A DNA stretch of 64,000 bases from Gimesia aquarii (GTDB lineage Bacteria > Planctomycetota > Planctomycetia > Planctomycetales > Planctomycetaceae). Location: the NCBI RefSeq assembly GCF_007748175.1, contig NZ_CP037422.1:2687231-2751230 (forward strand), given 5' to 3'. Positions 12,788 through 32,672 of this stretch are shown here, one piece after another. The translations under genes and the position numbers were made by a program. The notes below the pieces were generated by a model. It worked only from the letters and a program-made list of their open reading frames with translations. It was not told the DNA's origin and made no database searches. Position 1 is the stretch's first letter. Every line of letters begins with the position of its first letter.

Positions 12788-13260
12788 CGAATCTATCGGG
12801 TCGTCGAATAAGGTGCAGGATATCTAACAGACGTCAACCATGATAACCAGAGAACTCTCAAATGAAAATCCGTTTGTTTTCAAGTAGCGTCTCTTGATTC
12901 ATTAAAAATAAAAAAGAATTCAACCCCTGAAACAGAATTTTTGCTCGTAGATTTTATCGACGCTCCATCCGAAGGAATAACAGGGGTGAAAACAGAATTT
13001 CTACGTTGATTTTACATCATTCGCCCTAAAACATAGACAAAAAAGCGTTTTTGCCGACTCACTCTCTTGATGTAGCAGGATGTAAAAACCACTCGAAAAT
13101 CTTGAAAAATACGACCGTTCAGGCACGGCATAACCACGCCCCCAGAAACTGTTGCAATTAATTTGCATTAGAGATTGACTTCCGCAAACCATTTGCAATA
13201 ATGATTGCATTGTTACAGAATTTTATATCTTTATACCGACTAACGTCCCGGAGTTTAGAG
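12788..13260. other. AT-rich intergenic region with operator-like palindromes at its right end
   Basis: About 470 bases separate the divergent synthase and DUF1559 genes. The left part shows no coding sense. The right part carries the palindrome array described separately. Confidence 0.6.
13153..13209. promoter_or_regulatory. Array of Fur-family-like operator palindromes
   Basis: Three overlapping or adjacent inverted repeats lie 50-110 bases before the DUF1559 start. They are TGCAA-TTAAT-TTGCA at 13153-13167, GCAAA-CCA-TTTGC at 13184-13196 and TGCAAT-AATG-ATTGCA at 13194-13209. TGCAA-N-TTGCA palindromes resemble the Fur/Mur/Zur type of site known from alphaproteobacteria. The palindromes are visible directly; the regulator is inferred, and no fur or zur gene is in the window. 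Confidence 0.55.
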
Positions 13261-14163
13261 ATGAAGAGACTCAAGAAAACTCAGCGTGGCTTTACTTTGA
13301 TTGAGCTTCTGGTGGTGATTGCAATCATCGCGATTCTGATTGCGTTGCTGTTACCAGCCGTACAACAGGCACGTGAAGCAGCTCGCCGCAGCACCTGCAA
13401 GAATAATTTAAAACAAATAGGGCTGGCACTTCATAATTATAATGAGACCCACAATATCTTACCTTCAGGTTGGATTGGCGTTGAACCCGGGGTAGGATCC
13501 AATGTTGAGTTTGGTAGCGGCTGGGGTTGGGGAACCATGGCTCTCCCTTATCTTGATCAAGCACCTCTCTACAATCAAATCGACTTTAATCTCGATATAA
13601 ATGATCCTGCTCAGACTGCTGGTTTAATCGATCAAATTTTACCAGCGTTCCGTTGCCCTTCTGATCCTGCCCCTAACACGTTTGAACTAGAAGAAGAGGG
13701 AAATCCAGGAAATGTTTTAGCGGTACTGGCGCTCGCTAATTACATTGGAGTCTTTGGAAGCGATGAATTAGATGACTGTGAGATTGTTCCCGCAGGCTCA
13801 GCCTGTCAAAGTACCGGGCTTTTCTTTCATAACAGTAACACACGCTTTCGTGATATTACTGACGGCCTCTCACAAACACTGTTTGTAGGTGAACGAAAAA
13901 CAGATCCGAATTTCGGCTGGTATACTACCTGGGTGGGAGCCGTCCCTGAAGGCGAAGAAACGTTTGCTCGCGTCCTGGGGGCAACAGACCATACTCCTAA
14001 CGATCCCGCTTCTCACTTCGATGACTTCAGCAGTAACCACACAGGTGGTGCCCAGTTTGTCTTCGGAGATGGACGCGTCCGATTCATTTCTGAGAACATT
14101 GATTTGGGAGTCTATCGGGCTCTCTCAAGTATCAGAGGCGGAGAAGTCACGGATTTCGACTAA
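13261..14163 (+). CDS. DUF1559 domain protein with type IV pilin-like N-terminus
   Basis: A 300-residue member of the large planctomycete DUF1559 (SBP_bac_10) family. The start has a short basic leader ending in [20 protein letters not shown], the prepilin cleavage and methylation signal with the Glu5-equivalent, then [20 protein letters not shown]. The C-terminus has the usual SNHTGGAQFVFGDGRVRFIS and ALSSIRGGEV. Such proteins are processed by a prepilin peptidase and sit in the envelope; their exact role is unsettled. I choose ATG 13261, with GGAG seven bases upstream, over the ATG 60 bases earlier because it puts the leader at normal length. A palindrome array upstream suggests metal-dependent control, and a strong terminator follows. 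Confidence 0.9.
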   Translation: MKRLKKTQRGFTLIELLVVIAIIAILIALLLPAVQQAREAARRSTCKNNLKQIGLALHNYNETHNILPSGWIGVEPGVGSNVEFGSGWGWGTMALPYLDQAPLYNQIDFNLDINDPAQTAGLIDQILPAFRCPSDPAPNTFELEEEGNPGNVLAVLALANYIGVFGSDELDDCEIVPAGSACQSTGLFFHNSNTRFRDITDGLSQTLFVGERKTDPNFGWYTTWVGAVPEGEETFARVLGATDHTPNDPASHFDDFSSNHTGGAQFVFGDGRVRFISENIDLGVYRALSSIRGGEVTDFD

Positions 14164-23027: not shown

Positions 23028-23375
23028 ACAGGTTTTGAACAAACAAGCGTTCTCTTTCTGTGAATTTTTTTCTGCGAAATTTGTCATTTTCTACTGGTAA
23101 AACAGCTTTTGATTTCGGTCTCAAAAATCTGAAGAAAATCCTCTCCGTTTCTGTTTGACTCTTTGTTAAATCAAGCTAGTATCAGAAGCACTGAATGAGT
23201 TAACGCAGCGGGCTGGAAGACAATTGCCTGAGATCTTCCTGATGCTGTTCACAATGGAGCTTTTTAGCGCATCATTTCCCTATAAATTTCACGACTATGA
23301 TTTTTACAGAAGAGCAGGATTTCGCTTTTCTTATGTTATAGTAGAGGGATTGTGCGCGCAAGGGGAGGGTGCAAG
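23028..23375. other. Intergenic region upstream of the dnaA-like gene
   Basis: About 350 bases. I looked for DnaA boxes (TTATNCACA and its complement) and found no cluster, so it does not look like a replication origin by eye. AGGGGAGGGT at 23361-23370 is a strong ribosome binding site for the following gene. Confidence 0.5.
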
Positions 23376-24905
23376 ATGCAACCCAAGTCTTTGGCAGTGG
23401 AGGGTACGCTTTGTGGGTCAACACAAAAGCAACCAACGGAAGCCAAGCTGGGGCCTGTAAATACCGAAACAAGTGAGCAATCGATTACGCAATTGCTCGC
23501 GCAGCAGGTCGGTGAACGCAGCTTCCAGAACTGGTTTGCAGGAAAAGTCAGCTTCAAAATAGAAGGCAATCTTCTCACCATAGGCGTTGCCAGTCCATTT
23601 TTGCTGAGCTGGATGCAAAAAAAGTTTTCTTCCCAAATCTACGCGACGGCTCTTGCCTGTATTGGTTCCTCAGCGGAATATCGGTTCGAAGTGAATCCTG
23701 ATCTGGTTCAAGTTTCAAATAACAAAACCTCAAATAGAGAGCCAACTCACTCGACTACTGTAACTTTAGAAACAAATCCCTCTTCTTTGAGTTCAAAAAA
23801 CACATCAGGTGAGCACAAGCGAAGTGATCAAAAGAATTTAAAAAAAGAAGTATCGCGTTACAAAGGCAGGCTCTTTTCGAACCTTTCAACATTTGTAACT
23901 GGCAAGTCAAACCAACTGGCGTATACGGCAACGCTTCAAGCCAGTGATCAGCCGGGAGTGCTTTACAACCCACTCTTTATTCACGGTGGAGTCGGTGTAG
24001 GTAAAACTCACCTTTTAGAAGGATTCTATCGCAAAGTCCGTCAACTCTATCCTTCATTGCAAGTCGTTTTTCTTACATCAGAATCATTCGGAAACTACTT
24101 CTCGAAAGCATTACAAGAAAGGTCTGTTCCCAGTTTTCGTCAGCGATTCCGAAATGTTGATGTGCTCATCATCGATGATGTTGATTTTTTTGAATCCAAA
24201 CGGATCTTTCAGGAAGAGCTCTTACACACGATCAAACATTTGGAAAGCCATGGCCGACAACTCGTTTTTTCGTCAGACAGACACCCACGCCTGCTAACGA
24301 AAATGAGTGAGGAACTTACGACTCGGTTTCTCTCAGGACTAGTCTGTCGTGTGGAATCACCTGAAATCGAGTTGAGACTCGAGATTGCACGACAACGCGC
24401 TTTGAAATTAAAGACTCCCATCACAATGGGTGCTTTGGAATATGTTTCCAGACGATTTACCAATAATGTCCGGGAACTGGAAGGCGCCATGAACTGTCTG
24501 CAAACGTATCACGTCATGACGAAGCAGAAAATCACGACTTCAATGGCACGTCAGATTCTGGCTGATCTGGAACGTGATTGTATCCGAATTGTTAAACTCG
24601 ACGATATTAAACAAATCGTATGTTCTACCTTCGGCATCTCTGAAGCAGATTTGAAATCATCGCGCAGAGCCAGGAATATCAGCCAACCTCGAATGCTGGC
24701 TATGTTTCTTGGAAGAAAATTAACGCAAGCGGCATATAGTGAAATTGGAGAGTTCTTTGGAGGTCGTAATCACAGCACTGTGATGTTCGCAGAAAAACAG
24801 GTCAGAAAATGGCTTGAAAATCGATCTTCGATTCAAGTTGCCTTACAAGAATGGCCTATGGAAGAAATCATCGAATCTCTCGAACAACAGCTCTTAGCCA
24901 GCTAA
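23376..24905 (+). CDS. dnaA: Chromosomal replication initiator DnaA, divergent
   Basis: A 509-residue DnaA-type AAA+ protein that would bind and melt an origin. Domain I (about residues 36-90) has SITQLLAQQVGERSFQNWF and LTIGVASPFLLSWM. Domain II is a variable linker. Domain III begins FVTGKSNQLAYTAT, with Walker A GGVGVGKTHLLEG (about 204-216), Walker B DVLIIDDVDFFESKRIFQEE and the sensor/Arg-finger region LTTRFLSGLVCRVESPEIEL. Domain IV has RNISQPRMLAMFLGRKLTQA and the DNA-binding signature EIGEFFGGRNHSTVMFAEKQ, where the usual Asp of GGRDH is Asn. Start ATG 23376 has an excellent SD. dnaN, recF and gyrB are not adjacent, so this may be either the main or a second DnaA. Confidence 0.87.
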   Translation: MQPKSLAVEGTLCGSTQKQPTEAKLGPVNTETSEQSITQLLAQQVGERSFQNWFAGKVSFKIEGNLLTIGVASPFLLSWMQKKFSSQIYATALACIGSSAEYRFEVNPDLVQVSNNKTSNREPTHSTTVTLETNPSSLSSKNTSGEHKRSDQKNLKKEVSRYKGRLFSNLSTFVTGKSNQLAYTATLQASDQPGVLYNPLFIHGGVGVGKTHLLEGFYRKVRQLYPSLQVVFLTSESFGNYFSKALQERSVPSFRQRFRNVDVLIIDDVDFFESKRIFQEELLHTIKHLESHGRQLVFSSDRHPRLLTKMSEELTTRFLSGLVCRVESPEIELRLEIARQRALKLKTPITMGALEYVSRRFTNNVRELEGAMNCLQTYHVMTKQKITTSMARQILADLERDCIRIVKLDDIKQIVCSTFGISEADLKSSRRARNISQPRMLAMFLGRKLTQAAYSEIGEFFGGRNHSTVMFAEKQVRKWLENRSSIQVALQEWPMEEIIESLEQQLLAS

Positions 24906-24932: not shown

Positions 24933-27068
24933 TCAATACTGACCTTGCTGCGCTGGAAAGTGGTAAGGTGATGCTTGTTGTTGTGCTCCCCATTGAACGG
25001 GAGAGGATATTTGCTGGTTTGGTTCCGGGTTATGAGAACGGACATTCGCTGGAGCAAACGCAGGGTTATTAGAATACATTGCAGACTGAGGTACTGATGA
25101 AGGAATTTCATGAATTCTTCCAAGATTCCGATTCTGCGTAGCTGAATTGAAACCATTCATCTGCAAAGTTTGTTGATTTGAAAACTCGTAACCAGCCTGA
25201 CTAATTCCACGAGATATCTGCTGCTGATAGGTTGGCTGCCCTGTGCCGACCTGGCGAATGCTTTGACCACCTGTTTGATAAACATTCTGTTGAGGAACTT
25301 GTGCCGATGCAGGTATTGGATTGCTTGTCGGAATTTGTGAAGACATTAGGGGTGAACTATTTGGATGATTCGACTTACCTTCGGCAACCGGAAACATTTG
25401 GCCGGGTCCCATGTTCATACCAGTACGGACAGCTTCCTTGACCAACTGCTGCTCATGATTCTGCTGAATGTTTTCAGAATGCGATCTCTGCTGCTGTGGT
25501 GGAGACTGGGTTGAATTGATTTGATAGTTAGGAAATTGCCCGGGAGACTGATACTGTCTGCCGTACATCGGTTGGCCTGCACGCGGAACATTCGCAGGTG
25601 CCATTTGCTGCCTTCGCATCTGCTGTTGTTGTCGCGGAGTCATGTTTCGAGGTTGTCTCTGCTGCATGGACTGCCTCCCTTGAACCACAGGGTTCCTGTA
25701 TTGCTGCTGTTGGATCTGTGATGGAGAAAGTGGACGCGCTGTTCGGTTTTGAATCTGCTGCTGTTGTTTTTGTTGTTGCTGTGCTTTCGATGCCCAATAA
25801 TTCGAAGCTTCAACTGCCTGGGTGATGCCTGGATCACCTGCCGGTGGCCAAGCTTGAATTTGAGGTGCTTTGGCTCCAGATGTAGGAGCGGTTTCTGAGG
25901 GATTCACCATTAAAGGCGGAGTATCCTGAACATTCCCGGTCGCTTGATTGGGGTAACCAGTGACTTGCTTTGTCATCAGTTGATTCGGACTGATTGAAGG
26001 CAACTGCTGATCACCTCGCGCCTGAATAGCACGGTCTCTTTCCCGCTTCATCATTTCTGCGATCTGCAATGTAGGATTGTTTCCTGATGGATTCACCATT
26101 TGAAGGGATGAGGATTGTCCACTGCCTCCGCCACCCACATGTTGGATATTCTGATCATAGTCTGTCTGAAATTGACCCGCAGTTTGAATTCCCCCCATTG
26201 TATTTTCCGGTCCTACCATTTGTACGTTATGCGGCTTTGCGCCTCCTTGGGCCAAAGTAGGATTCGGTTCAACGCCCGGGAAGAGTTGGGCAAATTTCAA
26301 CTGCGCTTGAGCCTCTCCCCCCGTCATACGAAACAGAGACAACGCCTGATCATATTGTCCCATTCGTCCATAGTACCAACCGAGATGATCGAGAGAGCGT
26401 CTGTGACCTGGTTGATATTTGAGTGCTTCATGCAAGTATTTCTCACCATAATCATCACGTCCCTGTAACATATAGGAATAGCCAATATCACTGAGAAGAT
26501 CAGCATTCGAGGGATCTAGTTTTAATGCTTTCAGATAATAAGCTTCAGCCGTAGGAAAGTTGTTCTTTTTATCTTCAATAATTGCGAGTCGATGCAAGGC
26601 CCCAAAATTGTCAGGGTCAAGTGTGAGAACACGCTGATAGTACCCTTGCGCTTTCTCAATATTTCCACTGCGGTCGGCATCATAAGCCAGATTTAATTCA
26701 CGAATCACTGTGGTATCGTTTGACTCCAAGGGAGCTGGTTCTGTGGAACTGATAGGTAAAATTTTGGATTCCGTTGGACGAGTAAGATGGTTCTGATTTT
26801 GGTTGGGTGTCGAAAGTTCTGCCAGGCTGGCCGACGGATCTGGTTGGGAATTCCGCCGATTTCTCTCAGATTGTCCTTTCTGTCTCTCAACAGCCATCGC
26901 TTCTCTTAAACTTTTCTGTATTTCAGACTCATTCTTCATTTCAGATGAATCTTGGGCAAATGAATCCGATAATTGAGAATTTCTGGCGAAAGGACCAGAC
27001 TGGCATCCATATATTAAGATGGAAAGCAATGACAGGAATACAACATGTTGAAACATACGAGTTTTCAT
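24933..27068 (-). CDS. TPR lipoprotein with long Gln-rich tail (TadD-like)
   Basis: A 711-residue lipoprotein: signal and lipobox in VVFLSLLSILIYGCQSGPFA. A TPR domain (about residues 118-260) has tandem units such as GNIEKAQGYYQRVLTLDPDN, NFPTAEAYYLKALKLDPSNA and DDYGEKYLHEALKYQPGHRR. From about 265 on the chain is low-complexity, rich in Gln, Pro, Asn and Ser with short QQQ runs. The TPR-lipoprotein layout resembles TadD, the pilotin-like helper of Flp/Tad secretins, and it is the third gene after a secretin and an OmpA/CpaD-like lipoprotein on the same strand. The long tail is not part of TadD and may span or coat the envelope. The 500-base gap with a terminator upstream argues for a separate transcript. 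Confidence 0.72.
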   Translation of the reverse strand: MKTRMFQHVVFLSLLSILIYGCQSGPFARNSQLSDSFAQDSSEMKNESEIQKSLREAMAVERQKGQSERNRRNSQPDPSASLAELSTPNQNQNHLTRPTESKILPISSTEPAPLESNDTTVIRELNLAYDADRSGNIEKAQGYYQRVLTLDPDNFGALHRLAIIEDKKNNFPTAEAYYLKALKLDPSNADLLSDIGYSYMLQGRDDYGEKYLHEALKYQPGHRRSLDHLGWYYGRMGQYDQALSLFRMTGGEAQAQLKFAQLFPGVEPNPTLAQGGAKPHNVQMVGPENTMGGIQTAGQFQTDYDQNIQHVGGGGSGQSSSLQMVNPSGNNPTLQIAEMMKRERDRAIQARGDQQLPSISPNQLMTKQVTGYPNQATGNVQDTPPLMVNPSETAPTSGAKAPQIQAWPPAGDPGITQAVEASNYWASKAQQQQKQQQQIQNRTARPLSPSQIQQQQYRNPVVQGRQSMQQRQPRNMTPRQQQQMRRQQMAPANVPRAGQPMYGRQYQSPGQFPNYQINSTQSPPQQQRSHSENIQQNHEQQLVKEAVRTGMNMGPGQMFPVAEGKSNHPNSSPLMSSQIPTSNPIPASAQVPQQNVYQTGGQSIRQVGTGQPTYQQQISRGISQAGYEFSNQQTLQMNGFNSATQNRNLGRIHEIPSSVPQSAMYSNNPAFAPANVRSHNPEPNQQISSPVQWGAQQQASPYHFPAQQGQY
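25440..25790. repeat. CAG/CTG-biased coding repeat (poly-Gln tracts)
   Basis: Within the TPR lipoprotein gene, clusters of CTG and TTG triplets on this strand encode runs of Gln on the other strand. Such tracts can vary in length between strains. Confidence 0.6.
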
Positions 27069-27575
27069 CGGGTATCAACCTTAACTCAGCGAATACAGAT
27101 CGTGCTGCTTCATTTAAATTTATGATTTGTTTAAAGCCAGCAATCTGGATGAAGCACAATCGACTCAATTCCAAGTGCACTAATGAAATCACATATTTTT
27201 AGACGGATTCCAGTCTCGGCCTGCATTAGATTGAATATTGATTTTGCTTCTTTTACTGGATTGTCAGCAAGAAAAGTATATTTGTGGATTGAGGGACTTT
27301 GAGAGAGAATTGATTTAATGTGAGGCGAGGATTTTAAGCTGATTCCCAAATCGTGTCGATACGAGTTTTGAAAATAAATTGAAAGACAATATTCGATCGA
27401 CATCCCGAGATCTGACCGCTGTTTGAACAAAATCTACAAGAACAATTCTTCTTAAATTCCTGTCAAATATGAATTTAAAAAACGCCACAGGAGAAATGAT
27501 TCTCTTGTGACGTTTTGATTGTCCTACTTGGAAAGCCTGTGACAGATCTTGTGAAGATAGCTAATTCAGGCGAAT
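27069..27575. other. Intergenic region with a terminator near its right end
   Basis: About 500 bases between the OmpA-like and TPR lipoprotein genes. Besides the hairpin at 27473-27518, I see no gene, RNA or repeat; short open frames here lack ribosome sites and family features. Confidence 0.5.
27473..27518 (-). terminator. Rho-independent terminator (likely works both ways)
   Basis: The 16-base arms AAAACGCCACAGGAGA and TCTCTTGTGACGTTTT pair with one C/A mismatch and one wobble around an AATGAT loop. The A-run on the left gives a T-run on the minus strand, ending the glycine-rich lipoprotein transcript. Confidence 0.85.
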
Positions 27576-28169
27576 TTAAAATCCACCACCGCCAAATCCA
27601 CCACCACCAAAGCCACCACCGCCGAAACCGCCACCGCCGAAACCACCACCAAAGCCGCCACCAAATCCACCACGAGTAAAGAGGAATCGGTAGTAGTCGA
27701 TTTCCGCTTCTCGGGAATTCAATGACCGCCCATAAGGGGTTGCAACAAAGGTGCGCTGGTCAGCATCCTGGTTTCCCAGATCTGTTAAAATCCGAGCAAC
27801 CAGTTGACGTCGAAATGCATCAAGTTCCGGGGCATAATTATTATCACTGCGTTCAACAATTACCGGATAAGGAGCACTTCTCATCCGTGCTCCGATTTCG
27901 AGAATGTGATCTTTTCCGTTTGTGGTAAGTTCGGCACTATTCTCGACAAATTCATTTCGGTTGATAATAAAATCGACCGCCTCGGCATTGGACTCCATTG
28001 TGTGATAATGCGCTCGATTCACACTACCCAGTGGATAGACTTCAGGAATTGCTAATGAGCGTTTGTGTAATCCCCACTGGCCACCACCGCCCCAACCACA
28101 GCAACCTGCTACCAGCAGTATGCAGAACGAAGCAAGAACCAGTTTTTGTATTATTGGTAATCGGGCCAT
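27576..28169 (-). CDS. OmpA/CpaD-like lipoprotein with Gly-rich tail
   Basis: A 197-residue lipoprotein: signal LVLASFCILLVAGCCGWGGG with lipobox VAGC. The middle (about residues 60-150) reads AEAVDFIINRNEFVENSAEL, LTTNGKDHILEIGARM, YPVIVERSDNN and LDAFRRQLVARILTDLG, a pattern like a degenerate OmpA-type peptidoglycan-binding domain or the CpaD/RcpB lipoprotein of Tad systems. The end is a tandem GGGF/GGF tail of about 30 residues. Start ATG 28169 is preferred: GAGGG lies 5 bases upstream, and the TTG at 28181 and ATG 28172 give poorer spacing. It follows the secretin gene by 170 bases on the same strand and probably works with it in the outer membrane. Confidence 0.65.
   Translation of the reverse strand: MARLPIIQKLVLASFCILLVAGCCGWGGGGQWGLHKRSLAIPEVYPLGSVNRAHYHTMESNAEAVDFIINRNEFVENSAELTTNGKDHILEIGARMRSAPYPVIVERSDNNYAPELDAFRRQLVARILTDLGNQDADQRTFVATPYGRSLNSREAEIDYYRFLFTRGGFGGGFGGGFGGGGFGGGGFGGGGFGGGGF
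27578..27668. repeat. Tandem repeat encoding GGGF/GGF units
   Basis: A run of about 15-base units (close to CCACCACCGCCGAAA) encodes the glycine/phenylalanine tail of the OmpA/CpaD-like lipoprotein. Unit number may vary between strains. Confidence 0.85.
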
Positions 28170-28341
28170 CATGTCCCTCAATTGTTATTTTATACGATGT
28201 TTTATCTTATATTGATTTTCAAAACACGAAATTCAGTTATAAGATTCAGACAAATCGTATTTCAGTATCAATTCTATGATTCACGTTCCATGAGCTGAAA
28301 ACCCATTGAACAATAAATATTTAGTTCTCGTACTTCGAGAG

Positions 28342-30522
28342 TTACTTCCCTCGACCGATCCAGGGAAATTTTGATTGACTCTTTGGTGATTCAGAAGAAT
28401 CAATTCGTTTTTTAGGATCCACATAACCTGCTGGTTGGACCCAATTATTGTTGTTTCTACCAGTCTTCGTGTTCTGGAATCTATCTTTGATCATCTGGGT
28501 AAAGCGCGGCTGATTTTGTTGTGATAGATTTCCTCGATTCAAATTCTGAGCCTGAGGTCCACTTGCTGCCGGTGCGGGTGGTGGAAGTGATGGCGGCTGA
28601 TTTGAATGAACCGGCCTCGGTGGTCTTACCGGCCTCGTTTGACTCGGAAACGGACGACTGGGAGGAATAGGCTGTGCTGCTGCACCGTTCTGATAAGTTC
28701 CCGTACTCACTGGAGGATAGTAAGGTGAAGCGGGTGCTGGATTAAATGGCTGATAACCGACTTCCACACCGCGGCCCGCTCCTCGTCCATACGGTTGCAG
28801 TTGGTAAACCCCGGTATCCGGTGCCCCTTCAGTCATATTGTACTTGTATAATTCTTTATCATGAGGCACTGTCACCTCGAAACCTGGATAAGGTGGCACT
28901 TCATCTTCTTCCATAGGCCTGACTAGTTGAGGAGTCACTGTAATCAGTAATTCCGATTCCCCCTGACTCGATTGTTTCGAGCTGAATAAATAACCGCCAA
29001 CGAGAGGAAGTTCTCCTAACCAGGGAATACGTGTCACTCCAGTCGTTGTATCATGCCCGAACAAACCTGCTAGCACGATTGTCTGGCCTTCGCGTAACTC
29101 GACAGTTGTCTGGGCTCTTCTGGAATCCAAACCCGGAATACCGGAGACTGCGTTATTGTCGTTGATTTGGCTATATTCCGGAACGATTCGCATACGAATC
29201 AAATCTTTGTCAATCACAATTGGTGTCACTACGATTGAGGTACCAAAACCTCGGAACGTGGTTGATGTTCCCTGGGCTCCCCCTACCCCCACAATCGTAG
29301 GTACCGCAAATTCACCACCGGCCAGAAAACTCGCTGAGTGCCCACTTAATACGGTTAAAGTCGGCCGAGCCATAATTTTTGTTGTACCATTCTGAGCCAA
29401 TGCATTAATGAGTACATTCACTTCACCTGCTTCAAAAATACCGGTCAAAGTCGAAGGAACGCCACCCATCGTTGAACCAATAAAATGTCGACCATTGTCA
29501 AACAGAACACTTAAATCCACACCCAGTTGTCTCAACATCGTTCGGTTCAGTTGCGCAATTGTCACATGAATCATCACTTGAAATTCTCCAGGAATCTCAA
29601 GCATATTAACAATTAATGAGGACGCATAATCAAGATCAACGCCACCATATGTAGAGTCAATGCCAGCCCCCCCATATCCAAAACCAGTTGAATAAGGCTG
29701 TGGCCCACCAAGATTTCCATCCAGACTGATCACTTCTCCCCGAATGACAGAAAGAATATGGGCGGCCTCTGTTGCATCAGCAGCTTCCCCTTTGACAATG
29801 ATTTTCCGTGAAAGCGGGATCAAGTATACTTTGCTGTTAGGAAATAAGACTGCTAATTTTCGTTCCAGTTTGCCGTAGTCGATTCGTCTCTGATCACCGT
29901 AGTCAGGGTCCTGTATGGTATGGACAAGATAGGTAATGGGAGTTTCATCGCCTTCAAACCAGAGCGTAAGAGTGGTTGTTCCCAGTTCCAAACCAACAAT
30001 GGCCACTTCCGTAGGCGAGTAAGTAACAAATTCAATGATCGAAGGATCCGCAATCGCATATCGCCGAATTCGGGAATTCGTAATCACCAACTGACTACGG
30101 CGAATAATGATTTCCATTTCATCAAAGATTCCGGGAGTTGAACGGATCTGTGAAGGTAGTGGTTTTCTGGTAATACGTCCTGTATCCTGAACCATACGAA
30201 TGCTTGGACCATGCGCAGGTACTTGCCCATTCGGAATCGGTACAATTCCGTTCTGTACTGGCATTACTCCCTGAGGTTGCTGAACATAGGGACTTTGCTG
30301 AAATTGTCCAGAGTTATTTGAGGGAACTTGAACTTGTGCTGGTACATACTGATCTCCCCTTGGAACAGGCTGAGGCAATTGGATCATCGATGGGCCCTGA
30401 GCGAGTACCAACTGCGCACAAACGACATTTGCCAGTACAATAGCAATCAGCTTTGTGAGATCTTGAAATCGATTCTTTTCAAAATTTCGAAGTGCCCGTC
30501 CGTGGCAGTTCTGTTTGAACAT
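28342..30522 (-). CDS. Type II/III secretin, CpaC/RcpA-like
   Basis: A 726-residue outer-membrane secretin. After a signal peptide (ending VLAQGPS) and a Pro/Gln-rich stretch, residues 130-200 form the pilus-assembly N-terminal domain: RRSQLVITNSRIRRYAIADP, SPTEVAIVGLELGTTTLTLW. A BON/N1-like part follows (LIPLSRKIIVKGEAADATEA), then the secretin domain (about 305-560) with FQVMIHVTIAQLNRTMLRQL, MARPTLTVLSGHSASFLAGG, ELREGQTIVLAGLFGHDTTT, PWLGELPLVGGYLFSSK and SELLITVTPQLVRPM. The tail is Pro-rich. This order is that of CpaC/RcpA, the pore of Flp pilus/Tad systems. The ATPase and inner-membrane TadB/C genes are not here. Start ATG 30522. Confidence 0.9.
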   Translation of the reverse strand: MFKQNCHGRALRNFEKNRFQDLTKLIAIVLANVVCAQLVLAQGPSMIQLPQPVPRGDQYVPAQVQVPSNNSGQFQQSPYVQQPQGVMPVQNGIVPIPNGQVPAHGPSIRMVQDTGRITRKPLPSQIRSTPGIFDEMEIIIRRSQLVITNSRIRRYAIADPSIIEFVTYSPTEVAIVGLELGTTTLTLWFEGDETPITYLVHTIQDPDYGDQRRIDYGKLERKLAVLFPNSKVYLIPLSRKIIVKGEAADATEAAHILSVIRGEVISLDGNLGGPQPYSTGFGYGGAGIDSTYGGVDLDYASSLIVNMLEIPGEFQVMIHVTIAQLNRTMLRQLGVDLSVLFDNGRHFIGSTMGGVPSTLTGIFEAGEVNVLINALAQNGTTKIMARPTLTVLSGHSASFLAGGEFAVPTIVGVGGAQGTSTTFRGFGTSIVVTPIVIDKDLIRMRIVPEYSQINDNNAVSGIPGLDSRRAQTTVELREGQTIVLAGLFGHDTTTGVTRIPWLGELPLVGGYLFSSKQSSQGESELLITVTPQLVRPMEEDEVPPYPGFEVTVPHDKELYKYNMTEGAPDTGVYQLQPYGRGAGRGVEVGYQPFNPAPASPYYPPVSTGTYQNGAAAQPIPPSRPFPSQTRPVRPPRPVHSNQPPSLPPPAPAASGPQAQNLNRGNLSQQNQPRFTQMIKDRFQNTKTGRNNNNWVQPAGYVDPKKRIDSSESPKSQSKFPWIGRGK

Positions 30523-30979
30523 CCGCAGTCGCTCCCCAATTACCTACTCAGAGGAAAATGGCAATTTGCGTTATCATTGAGTCCTTGTTTCATGTTAGAG
30601 AACAACCAGAGGGCTCATAGAACATGACTTAGAATCAAAAATAACGTTTATCAAATGTCAGCAAATTTTCCTTAACTTGCTGTATATCAATCATTTCAGT
30701 GTATGATTCAAAATGCCCCAATCGACTTGGATCTCGACGAAGTTGTTCCGAACCTCAAATCCAATGAACGCAATTTGGGTAAATACATACCACATTGTAT
30801 TGTTTGTATCGGCTAATCATGAAAAGAGGATTAGAATGGATCGACTTATTTTTCCTCTTCTACGGAACGTCACACCTTTTACGCCGCTATTTTAGTAGCA
30901 ATAAAAAAACCCAGGCTTAAAGCCTGGGCGATGGGATTCAGTCAAATCAGCCTTAAAAACTGTTCATTTTATTAGTGAA
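30523..30979. other. Intergenic region between secretin and small secreted-protein gene
   Basis: About 450 bases, AT-rich. It holds the terminator at 30901-30928 and presumably the secretin promoter. A 60-codon plus-strand frame at 30713 shows no family features and I do not call it a gene. Confidence 0.5.
30901..30928 (-). terminator. Rho-independent terminator of the small secreted-protein gene
   Basis: Stem CCCAGGCT with AGCCTGGG around a short TAA loop; the A-run at 30903-30909 becomes a T-run on the minus strand, about 50 bases after the gene's stop. Confidence 0.9.
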
Positions 30980-31558
30980 TCACCAGCGATAGTTTGTGTC
31001 ACGATTATAAGTAGGAGCCCCTGGATTATACCAAGGCCGCCTGTAACTGTATGAGGGGAAACGGAAATGCCCATACTCGTGCGACCGATAAAACCCGGGT
31101 CCAAAGTGCCTTGTATAAGGATCAGATGACAGAGCCTGGTCTTGCATTCCTGTATTCGCACTATGATAACCACCATACCAAGTCTGTCCCGCATGCATAC
31201 CCACGCTAGGTCCAGTCATTCCATAAGTACTTCCTGGGCCTTGAGTAGCGCTATAGTAATAAGGTGTTCCCACTTGGGGTGCAATATTGTTGGGTAACCA
31301 ATATTGATTTCCACCCCGCACATAAGGCCCCCCCTGATAACCAGGGACAGGACGTGTAATCGCATCAGGATTTTGATTCTGCGGAGCATTTTGAGGTGCG
31401 ACGTTCGCAGCGGGATCTGGACTGGGTGAAACTGAGCTTGGTGGAGGAGGTAATGTCGATGATTTCCCTAAATCAGCCCCTGGTATCACGGGATCATCAG
31501 CGTATAGAGGAGCAACACCGATCAATAATATCGTTATTATAATTTTAATTTGTGGCAT
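30980..31558 (-). CDS. Small secreted Pro/Tyr-rich protein
   Basis: A 192-residue exported protein with a signal peptide (MPQIKIIITILLIGVAPLYA) and a Pro/Asn/Gln-rich linker (about residues 35-95). The Tyr/Gly/Arg-rich C-terminus contains RHFGPGFYRSHEYGHFRFP and SYRRPWYNPGAP. I recall similar short secreted proteins with HFRFP and SYRRPWY motifs from planctomycetes; no function is known to me. Low complexity and the lack of Cys suggest a structural or surface-layer role, but this is a guess. It has its own terminator and lies divergent from another small secreted-protein gene 535 bases away. Confidence 0.7.
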   Translation of the reverse strand: MPQIKIIITILLIGVAPLYADDPVIPGADLGKSSTLPPPPSSVSPSPDPAANVAPQNAPQNQNPDAITRPVPGYQGGPYVRGGNQYWLPNNIAPQVGTPYYYSATQGPGSTYGMTGPSVGMHAGQTWYGGYHSANTGMQDQALSSDPYTRHFGPGFYRSHEYGHFRFPSYSYRRPWYNPGAPTYNRDTNYRW

Positions 31559-32093: not shown

Positions 32094-32672
32094 ATGTCTA
32101 CGACTTTTTTTGCGATTGCCATTACAGCTGCCCTCGGTGGAGATCCTGCGATTTCTAATGGGGCCTATTATGGTGCCACCGAGATTCCTGGCGGAGCTTA
32201 TTATCCAACGACAGATGGCCCCGTTACGAGCGGCGGAGTCACTGGTGGAATCTTTGGAGACGAGTTATATCCCTTCGATTCACAACACCCCTGGCAGCAT
32301 GGATATTTTCAGGAAATTTCACCTTATAGCGGCTATCATTTTTTCAGGCCCTATAATTACCGACACGTTCTCTCACAAAGTCAGGTGGCTGCGGGATGGG
32401 GAATCACCCCACAACTTACTTATTCACAACATTTCTGGAATCGATACCAGGAACAAGCTGCCTGGAAGAACTATGCACTTCCTCGGCGAGAGAAGGATCT
32501 GGAACGAATTCAGCAACGAAAGGAAGCCCTCAAGCGGCAGACTTCCTACTATCAACAACAACCTGTGATGGTCCCCGTTCAATACCAGCAGCAGTTTCAA
32601 CCACAACAACAGTTTCAGCAACAGCCGATCCAGATCCAAAGCCCAGAACTCAGTCAAGCTCCGAGATATTAA
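32094..32672 (+). CDS. Small secreted Tyr/Gln-rich protein
   Basis: A 192-residue protein with a short hydrophobic start (TTFFAIAITAALGG), a Gly/Tyr-rich part, then a distinctive core: DSQHPWQHGYFQEISPYSGY, HFFRPYNYRHVLSQSQVAAG and YSQHFWNRYQEQAAW (about residues 63-125). The end is a Gln-rich tail (YQQQPVMVPVQYQQQFQPQQ). I associate the FRPYNYRHV-type core with planctomycete-specific secreted proteins of unknown function. GAGGA sits 9 bases before ATG 32094. It and the divergent 192-residue neighbour share aromatic, Arg-rich cores, so they may act in the same envelope structure; that is inference. Confidence 0.7.
   Translation: MSTTFFAIAITAALGGDPAISNGAYYGATEIPGGAYYPTTDGPVTSGGVTGGIFGDELYPFDSQHPWQHGYFQEISPYSGYHFFRPYNYRHVLSQSQVAAGWGITPQLTYSQHFWNRYQEQAAWKNYALPRREKDLERIQQRKEALKRQTSYYQQQPVMVPVQYQQQFQPQQQFQQQPIQIQSPELSQAPRY

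Follow-up and report, generated by a model that had tools for sequence, protein, structure and literature searches.

Tad (type IVc pilus) machines are reported to be encoded almost exclusively at a single locus (PMC6668835). The genes of Caulobacter crescentus are described as one cpa locus, in which the essential partner of the secretin CpaC is CpaD, predicted to be an OmpA-fold lipoprotein that surrounds the secretin, and the TadD relative CpaO is dispensable (PMC13170226). The Tad secretin RcpA of Pseudomonas depends for its assembly on the TPR lipoprotein TadD, which binds the final residues of RcpA (PMC10499894). The two-part arrangement of the Tad-like Kil apparatus of Myxococcus xanthus has been called a unique situation (PMC8460266). 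Among the titles and abstracts surveyed, none describes the gene trio considered here or its pairing with a distant motor cluster.

The window, the whole 64,000-nucleotide stretch analysed, covers positions 2,687,231 to 2,751,230 of the 7.22-Mb single-contig genome of Gimesia aquarii. Between window positions 24933 and 30522, three open reading frames on the same (-) strand encode a secretin (S1), a lipoprotein (O1), and a TPR lipoprotein (T1). An earlier note, made from the DNA letters alone, had read them as the outer-membrane half of a Tad/Flp-like apparatus, and the reading frames, their domains, and the match to RcpA agree. It is likely that the trio supplies the outer-membrane module for a Tad machine encoded in two places, that its inner-membrane half is a gene cluster elsewhere on the chromosome (set c, or system C), and that the whole arose by duplication of a complete system. 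Such a split arrangement would be unusual, given that Tad machines are normally encoded at one place. That the halves work together, and each role named below, we infer from genomes, through domains, gene order, trees, co-occurrence, and a moderate fold match.

S1 (28342..30522, - strand) is a Tad-type, CpaC/RcpA-like secretin of 726 aa with a long Pro/Gln-rich C-terminal tail. It matches the Pfam families Secretin (E 4.6e-39) and T2SS-T3SS_pil_N (E 3.9e-11), and among solved structures its closest sequence relative is the Tad secretin RcpA (8odn, E 1.2e-35). Next comes 8jvb, a chain with a general name (9e-28), and the first chain named GspD follows at 2.3e-17. Among the PHROGs, S1 matches M13 protein IV only. 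An origin in a type II secretion system or a type IVa pilus, possibly served by DUF1559/N_methyl pseudopilins, would draw on the presence in the window of one DUF1559 protein with an N_methyl leader (13201-14163) and on the reportedly very large numbers of such proteins in Planctomycetales (PMC8567305). Nothing in the analysis ties the window's DUF1559 protein to the trio. RcpA outscores the GspD and PilQ chains by a wide margin, and the GspD and PilQ models stay far under their cut-offs. S1 was rejected on these grounds as a secretin of either kind, and the chance that it is one is very slight.

The gene for O1 (27576..28181, - strand) directly follows the secretin gene, the position expected of CpaD, and its product is a lipoprotein that combines a putative OmpA-like core with a Gly-rich tail. 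Judged by eye, both O1 and T1 have a lipobox Cys after a hydrophobic leader, with a less usual Tyr at -2 in T1, and the Cys is conserved among O proteins. O1 has no Pfam or NCBIfam family at cut-off. None of 30 O family members matches Pfam CpaD (PF09476) at E up to 1, in a search where an annotated Azospirillum CpaD, the positive control, scored 5.7e-30. Comparison of the O profile with CpaD by hhalign gave probabilities of 6.7% (E 0.0054) and 7.9% (E 0.0043), the E-values being those of a single comparison, and an unrelated control alignment gave 0.1%. With the model match absent and the hhalign probability under 8%, O1 was rejected as a member of Pfam CpaD.

The predicted structure of O1, with a pLDDT of about 90-96 across residues 71-140, has Pal as its best Foldseek match (E 0.01, prob 0.96; no match below 0.001). 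The 50 VIA rows for the model are mostly of OmpA, Pal, or MotB type with Z of 5.0-6.6, headed by a designed binder complex (6.7) and with EF-Tu also present at 5.2. Against solved structures, the O family profile gave weak OmpA-type matches, the best at E 0.081, below an unrelated chain at 0.054. The CpaD likeness that had been proposed for O1 therefore divides: O1 may fit the CpaD role by gene position, by its lipoprotein nature, and, moderately, by predicted fold, but not by sequence.

T1 (24933..27068, - strand) is a TPR lipoprotein with a Gln-rich tail and a possible TadD-like pilotin. Its TPR families lie at about residues 120-250 (best Pfam E 6.2e-17), and among the PHROGs it matches one family of unknown function. 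Gln makes up 19% of T1 residues 261-711, and Gly 77% of the last 31 residues of O1. Both of these tails, which had been called nonstandard, are real, but a Gly-rich tail is usual in O proteins from several families of the phylum. The C-termini of S1 relatives are variable and mostly basic, in contrast to the RcpA end to which TadD binds, which makes RcpA-like binding of T1 doubtful.

Related loci were compared as the best 80 of 94. Under a strict rule, S1 stands directly before O1 in 71 of the 77 with room; in the other six, S1 is hidden by an over-long O1 start call (four) or is absent (two). A same-strand TPR gene follows O1 at no more than 3 kb in 21 of 64 loci with room, and T1 is thus the weaker partner. 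Conservation of the gene order beyond close strains, which the earlier note had made a point to check, is accordingly clear for S1-O1 and less clear for T1.

Divergent to S1 is a gene for a small protein, N1b (32094..32672, + strand), with an FRPYNY motif and a Gln-rich tail. It keeps this orientation in 35 of 53 loci with room, and related genes adjoin a second trio in the same genome (S2, below) and three Tad clusters of family f5. The S1-side and S2-side forms are weakly similar (BLAST E ~1e-6 to 1e-4 for most pairs, in a small database). None of 15 members has a Pfam match, and the predicted model is poor (mean pLDDT 57.9). N1b is a possible fourth component of the system. Upstream of S1 lies N1_up (30980..31558, - strand), a small Gly/Pro/Tyr-rich protein kept in 14 of the best 80 of 94 loci. 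Between the two, a consensus scan placed a terminator-like hairpin with a T run (30909..30929, - strand), which suggests that S1 is transcribed separately from N1_up; the scan found 10 such sites, with 6.7 (sd 2.6) in shuffles. Promoter-like sites, at 9 found and 13.0 expected, showed no excess over shuffles.

Other neighbors of such loci are worth recording. Beside the trio, at window 23352-24905 (+ strand), lies a gene for DnaA, complete in its three Pfam domains, and 21 of the best 80 of 94 related loci also gave a DnaA-like match. Near some S1 trios, between MtnA and N1b, there is a protein of ~500-610 aa whose C-terminal part contains an O-like domain (L067 3419-4912, L111 3657, L122 3754, L147 4219), which sits elsewhere in other genomes; none was found in the window's genome, and the L067 copy has no Pfam match. 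On three rhizobial plasmids (L255, L256, L257), annotation places secretin-CpaD pairs next to type III secretion genes, and the short stretches examined include no Tad motor. Sinorhizobium meliloti plasmid p_1 (L246 3899-6144) carries in a row a secretin with a pilus N-terminal domain, a 98-aa unknown, and a TPR protein; with no Tad motor in the 9.2 kb examined, it is a motorless-looking parallel in another phylum.

The window itself holds none of the genome's T2SSE, T2SSF, or Flp_Fap matches, and tblastn with the genome's own CpaA, CpaB, CpaE, TadA, TadB, TadC, TadE, TadG, and Flp-like queries found nothing in it at E 1e-3. The earlier statement that TadA, TadB/C, prepilin peptidase, and Flp are missing from the window is borne out, and so is its suggestion of a motor encoded elsewhere: the genome has three TadA-TadB-TadC sets (a, b, and c), all outside the window, and three Tad-type secretins (S1, S2, and S3), none adjacent to a set. 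Set a, at 1.438 Mb, has no other Tad genes beside TadABC, and set b, at 3.44 Mb, adds CpaB and three small Flp-like genes. Set c, at ~6.629-6.636 Mb, reads CpaA-TadE-CpaB-TadG-TadA-TadB-TadC. Its Pfam matches (T2SSE, two T2SSF, RcpC, and Peptidase_A24) correspond to TadA, TadB, TadC, CpaB, and the prepilin peptidase, and the gene in the TadG position has no Pfam family. No secretin lies beside set c in this genome or in the 19 related clusters examined. S2, at 3.599 Mb, is part of a paralogous trio with O2 and T2, and S3, at 6.027 Mb, stands with CpaA, CpaB, and CpaE.

The c cluster has no TadZ/CpaE, the one CpaE-like gene being that with S3. It also has no recognised Flp gene, as judged with an Flp model that is insensitive here and also missed the Flp-like genes of set b; its one clear match in the genome is near the S3 locus. 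No extra pilin gene is conserved across 20 C clusters, where the conserved ORFs of at least 40 aa overlapped the known seven genes or flanked them.

The arrangement of these parts in other genomes points to a partner for S1. In three genomes of family f5 (G040, G049, G057), a trio related to S2/O2/T2 adjoins genes for CpaA, TadA, TadB, TadC, and Flp-like proteins; two of the three clusters also have a CpaB match. Outside the family, an S3-type secretin lies within 7 kb of TadA in 16 of 21 genomes, as read by eye and with the type assigned without a tree. S2 goes with set b on this evidence, and, as the S3-type secretins mostly have a TadA near them too, S1 should belong to set c by elimination.

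Co-occurrence fits this pairing. In a panel of 29 genomes of the family, O1 and set c are both present in 21 and both missing in eight, and S1 was found in 20 of the 21. The exception, G257, has O1, N1b, and set c and is missing the secretin between O1 and N1b (L266 187-1880). At that gap, O1 and N1b almost abut, which may reflect a deletion or an assembly fault.

A wider count took in 148 genomes of the family, with cut-offs set after the scores had been seen (O1 type, E up to ~1e-24; TadA_c type, at least 574 bits, against at most 505 for others). At E up to 1e-12, 110 of the 148 were matched, of which 106 were counted as O1 type and four (G344, G019, G017, G380) as O2 type. The first count gave 96 genomes with both O1 and TadA_c, 37 with neither, 10 with O1 only, and five with TadA_c only (Fisher p 2.6e-20, with relatedness ignored). 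A second search of the 15 exceptions brought out split or missed genes in nine, changing the count to 105 with both, 37 with neither, four with O1 only, and two with TadA_c only. It recovered pieces of TadA_c at 60% identity or more in six genomes (G018, G035, G330, G365, G395, G398) and S1 in three (G344, G357, G406). Some of the 37 genomes with neither were so counted from absence among the matches listed, and 19 of them were searched again with S1. The secretins of G351 and G374, at 41% identity, are not assignable to S1 or S2 by identity alone.

Among the four remaining O1-only genomes, G385 has a short O1 match with an in-frame stop, G341 has S1 split over two frames, and G335 (98% complete) and G391 (90%) have an intact-looking N1b-S1-O1 group with no TadA_c found. 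TadA_c was found without O1 in G333 (94% complete) and G381 (89%). In a genome of the same genus as the window's (G003), which has O1 and an S1 match, TadA_c runs in two frames through an in-frame TAG (L184 8341-9690) and is either a broken gene or a sequencing error.

Distances between the halves vary widely. The c cluster ends ~9 kb from O1 on the same contig in G353 and lies ~19 kb from T1 in G340, where S1 was not seen and the contig ends. The distance from O1 to TadA_c is 166-265 kb in the eight further single-contig genomes of the genus and 3.9 Mb in the window's genome. Along a 25-genome tree of set a proteins, the presence label changes five times, and four of these changes fall on well-supported branches; the two halves always change as one, in a number of pairs too small for significance at 0.05 in a sign test. 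Genera g9 and g47 each include genomes holding both halves and genomes holding neither; in genus g45, both halves occur in three genomes, neither in three, and O1 only in two.

Two other readings of the trio have to be weighed against these patterns. The earlier note had described the trio as one without a motor that may be a lineage-specific envelope system, and the trio could be a motorless structure or a secretin reused for another purpose. The surroundings are in keeping with this, as 79 of the best 80 of 94 related loci have no motor closer than 10 kb (a lone Flp-like match at L159 is the exception) and rhizobial plasmids carry annotated secretin-CpaD pairs without an adjacent Tad motor. 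The near-constant company of one motor cluster, set c, even in genomes where the halves lie far apart, argues against a trio that lacks a motor or forms a separate kind of envelope system, and this reading is highly improbable.

Alternatively, the trio could be a second outer-membrane exit of Tad system A or B that uses their motor. All three systems are homologous, and every secretin locus in the genome stands apart from the motors. Yet S1 is present without set b in several genomes (e.g., G207, G226, G029, G240, G318), it was not found in some genomes that have set b (G017, G019), and set a is present where S1 was not found (G023, G034, G218). Set c, moreover, would be left without a secretin. 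Sharing of the A or B motor is unlikely in the face of these distributions, and the pairing of the trio with set c is the preferred reading.

Trees bear on the origin of system C. In a secretin tree of 41 rows, S1 forms one clade made up of rows from the window's family (f1) only (100/100), in agreement with the earlier claim of a lineage-specific system, and this clade is nested in a group (100/99) that also takes in S2 of families f1 and f5 and a single f7 row. TadA_c likewise forms one clade (100/100) in the TadA tree and groups with TadA_b (100/97), with a long-branch warning for L094; this tree was built without L184, L185, L186, L188, L189, L202, L203, L213, L223, and L224. S1 and TadA_c thus share parent groups with S2 and TadA_b, a pattern consistent with a whole system having been duplicated before its halves separated. 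Probably, a B-type Tad system was duplicated in the ancestor of the family, and its halves came apart later.

The family holds further motor sets. In other genera, CpaE-TadA-TadB-TadC sets (L194, L201, L204, L207, L210, L219, L235) mostly have no secretin match in the locus and form a separate group in the TadA tree; two more CpaE-TadABC sets (L222 and L231) occur with a secretin of another type.

In the proposed machine, S1 would be the exit channel for the pilus. O1 would surround the secretin as a lipoprotein ring and anchor it to the outer membrane or the peptidoglycan, as has been proposed for CpaD, and T1 may aid the assembly of S1, as was shown for TadD. The CpaA-TadE-CpaB-TadG-TadABC cluster on the same chromosome would supply the inner-membrane half. 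The product may be either a short TadE-based filament or a pilus whose undetected pilin is encoded elsewhere, because a prepilin peptidase and a TadE-type pilin gene are present and Flp was not recognised with an insensitive model.

The surface of planctomycetes offers one place to look for such a product. The make-up of their crateriform structures is described as unknown; in Planctopirus limnophila, the large craters carry fibres of 12 nm and the small polar ones are linked to stalk fibres of 6 nm, and at least some craters join the outer and cytoplasmic membranes (PMC5394234). It is conceivable, if rather doubtful, that system C, in which an OmpA-fold lipoprotein with a Gly-rich tail would surround the secretin, builds one kind of crateriform structure. 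By the thresholds used, the Tad-type secretins of a putative P. limnophila genome (G226) number exactly two, S1 and S3, and its TadA genes are likewise two, those of sets a and c; matching its two systems to the two crater types would be a guess. The analysis names gene pairs that can be tested and offers a concrete candidate for the proteins of planctomycete surface craters and fibres.

Set beside the described systems, the trio most resembles CpaC-CpaD of Caulobacter crescentus, where a secretin gene is likewise followed by one for a lipoprotein with a predicted OmpA-like fold (PMC13170226). The constancy of O1 and the inconstancy of the TPR gene, the least constant of the three, resemble the Caulobacter pattern, in which the TPR protein CpaO is reported as dispensable (PMC13170226). 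Unlike CpaD, O1 has no Pfam match, lacks by eye the LGC..NLA segment of the aligned CpaD set, and carries a Gly-rich tail, and the trio stands apart from its presumed motor whereas the Caulobacter genes are described as one locus (PMC13170226). S1 and T1 recall RcpA-TadD of Pseudomonas aeruginosa in pairing a Tad secretin with a TPR lipoprotein, but RcpA is reported to need its last four residues for TadD (PMC10499894), and the S1 tail is long with a variable end. The closest counterpart within the genome is the paralogous S2/O2/T2 trio (L022 8524-12144), which has the same order and a weakly similar small divergent neighbor; it differs in its shorter tails, in a presumed motor set with three Flp-like genes, and in having f5 relatives that adjoin their motor.

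The Kil apparatus of Myxococcus xanthus is like system C in being a Tad-like apparatus in two distant clusters, and is said to be without TadG, RcpB, and TadD (PMC8460266). The division falls differently in the two: Kil keeps its ATPase with the secretin and has the platform at the other site (PMC8460266), whereas here the secretin and lipoproteins are apart from the ATPase and platform. One bacterial family appears to keep its Tad systems as separate outer-membrane and inner-membrane halves that can be matched by co-occurrence, and such a family appears to be new beside both the single-locus Tad machines and Kil.
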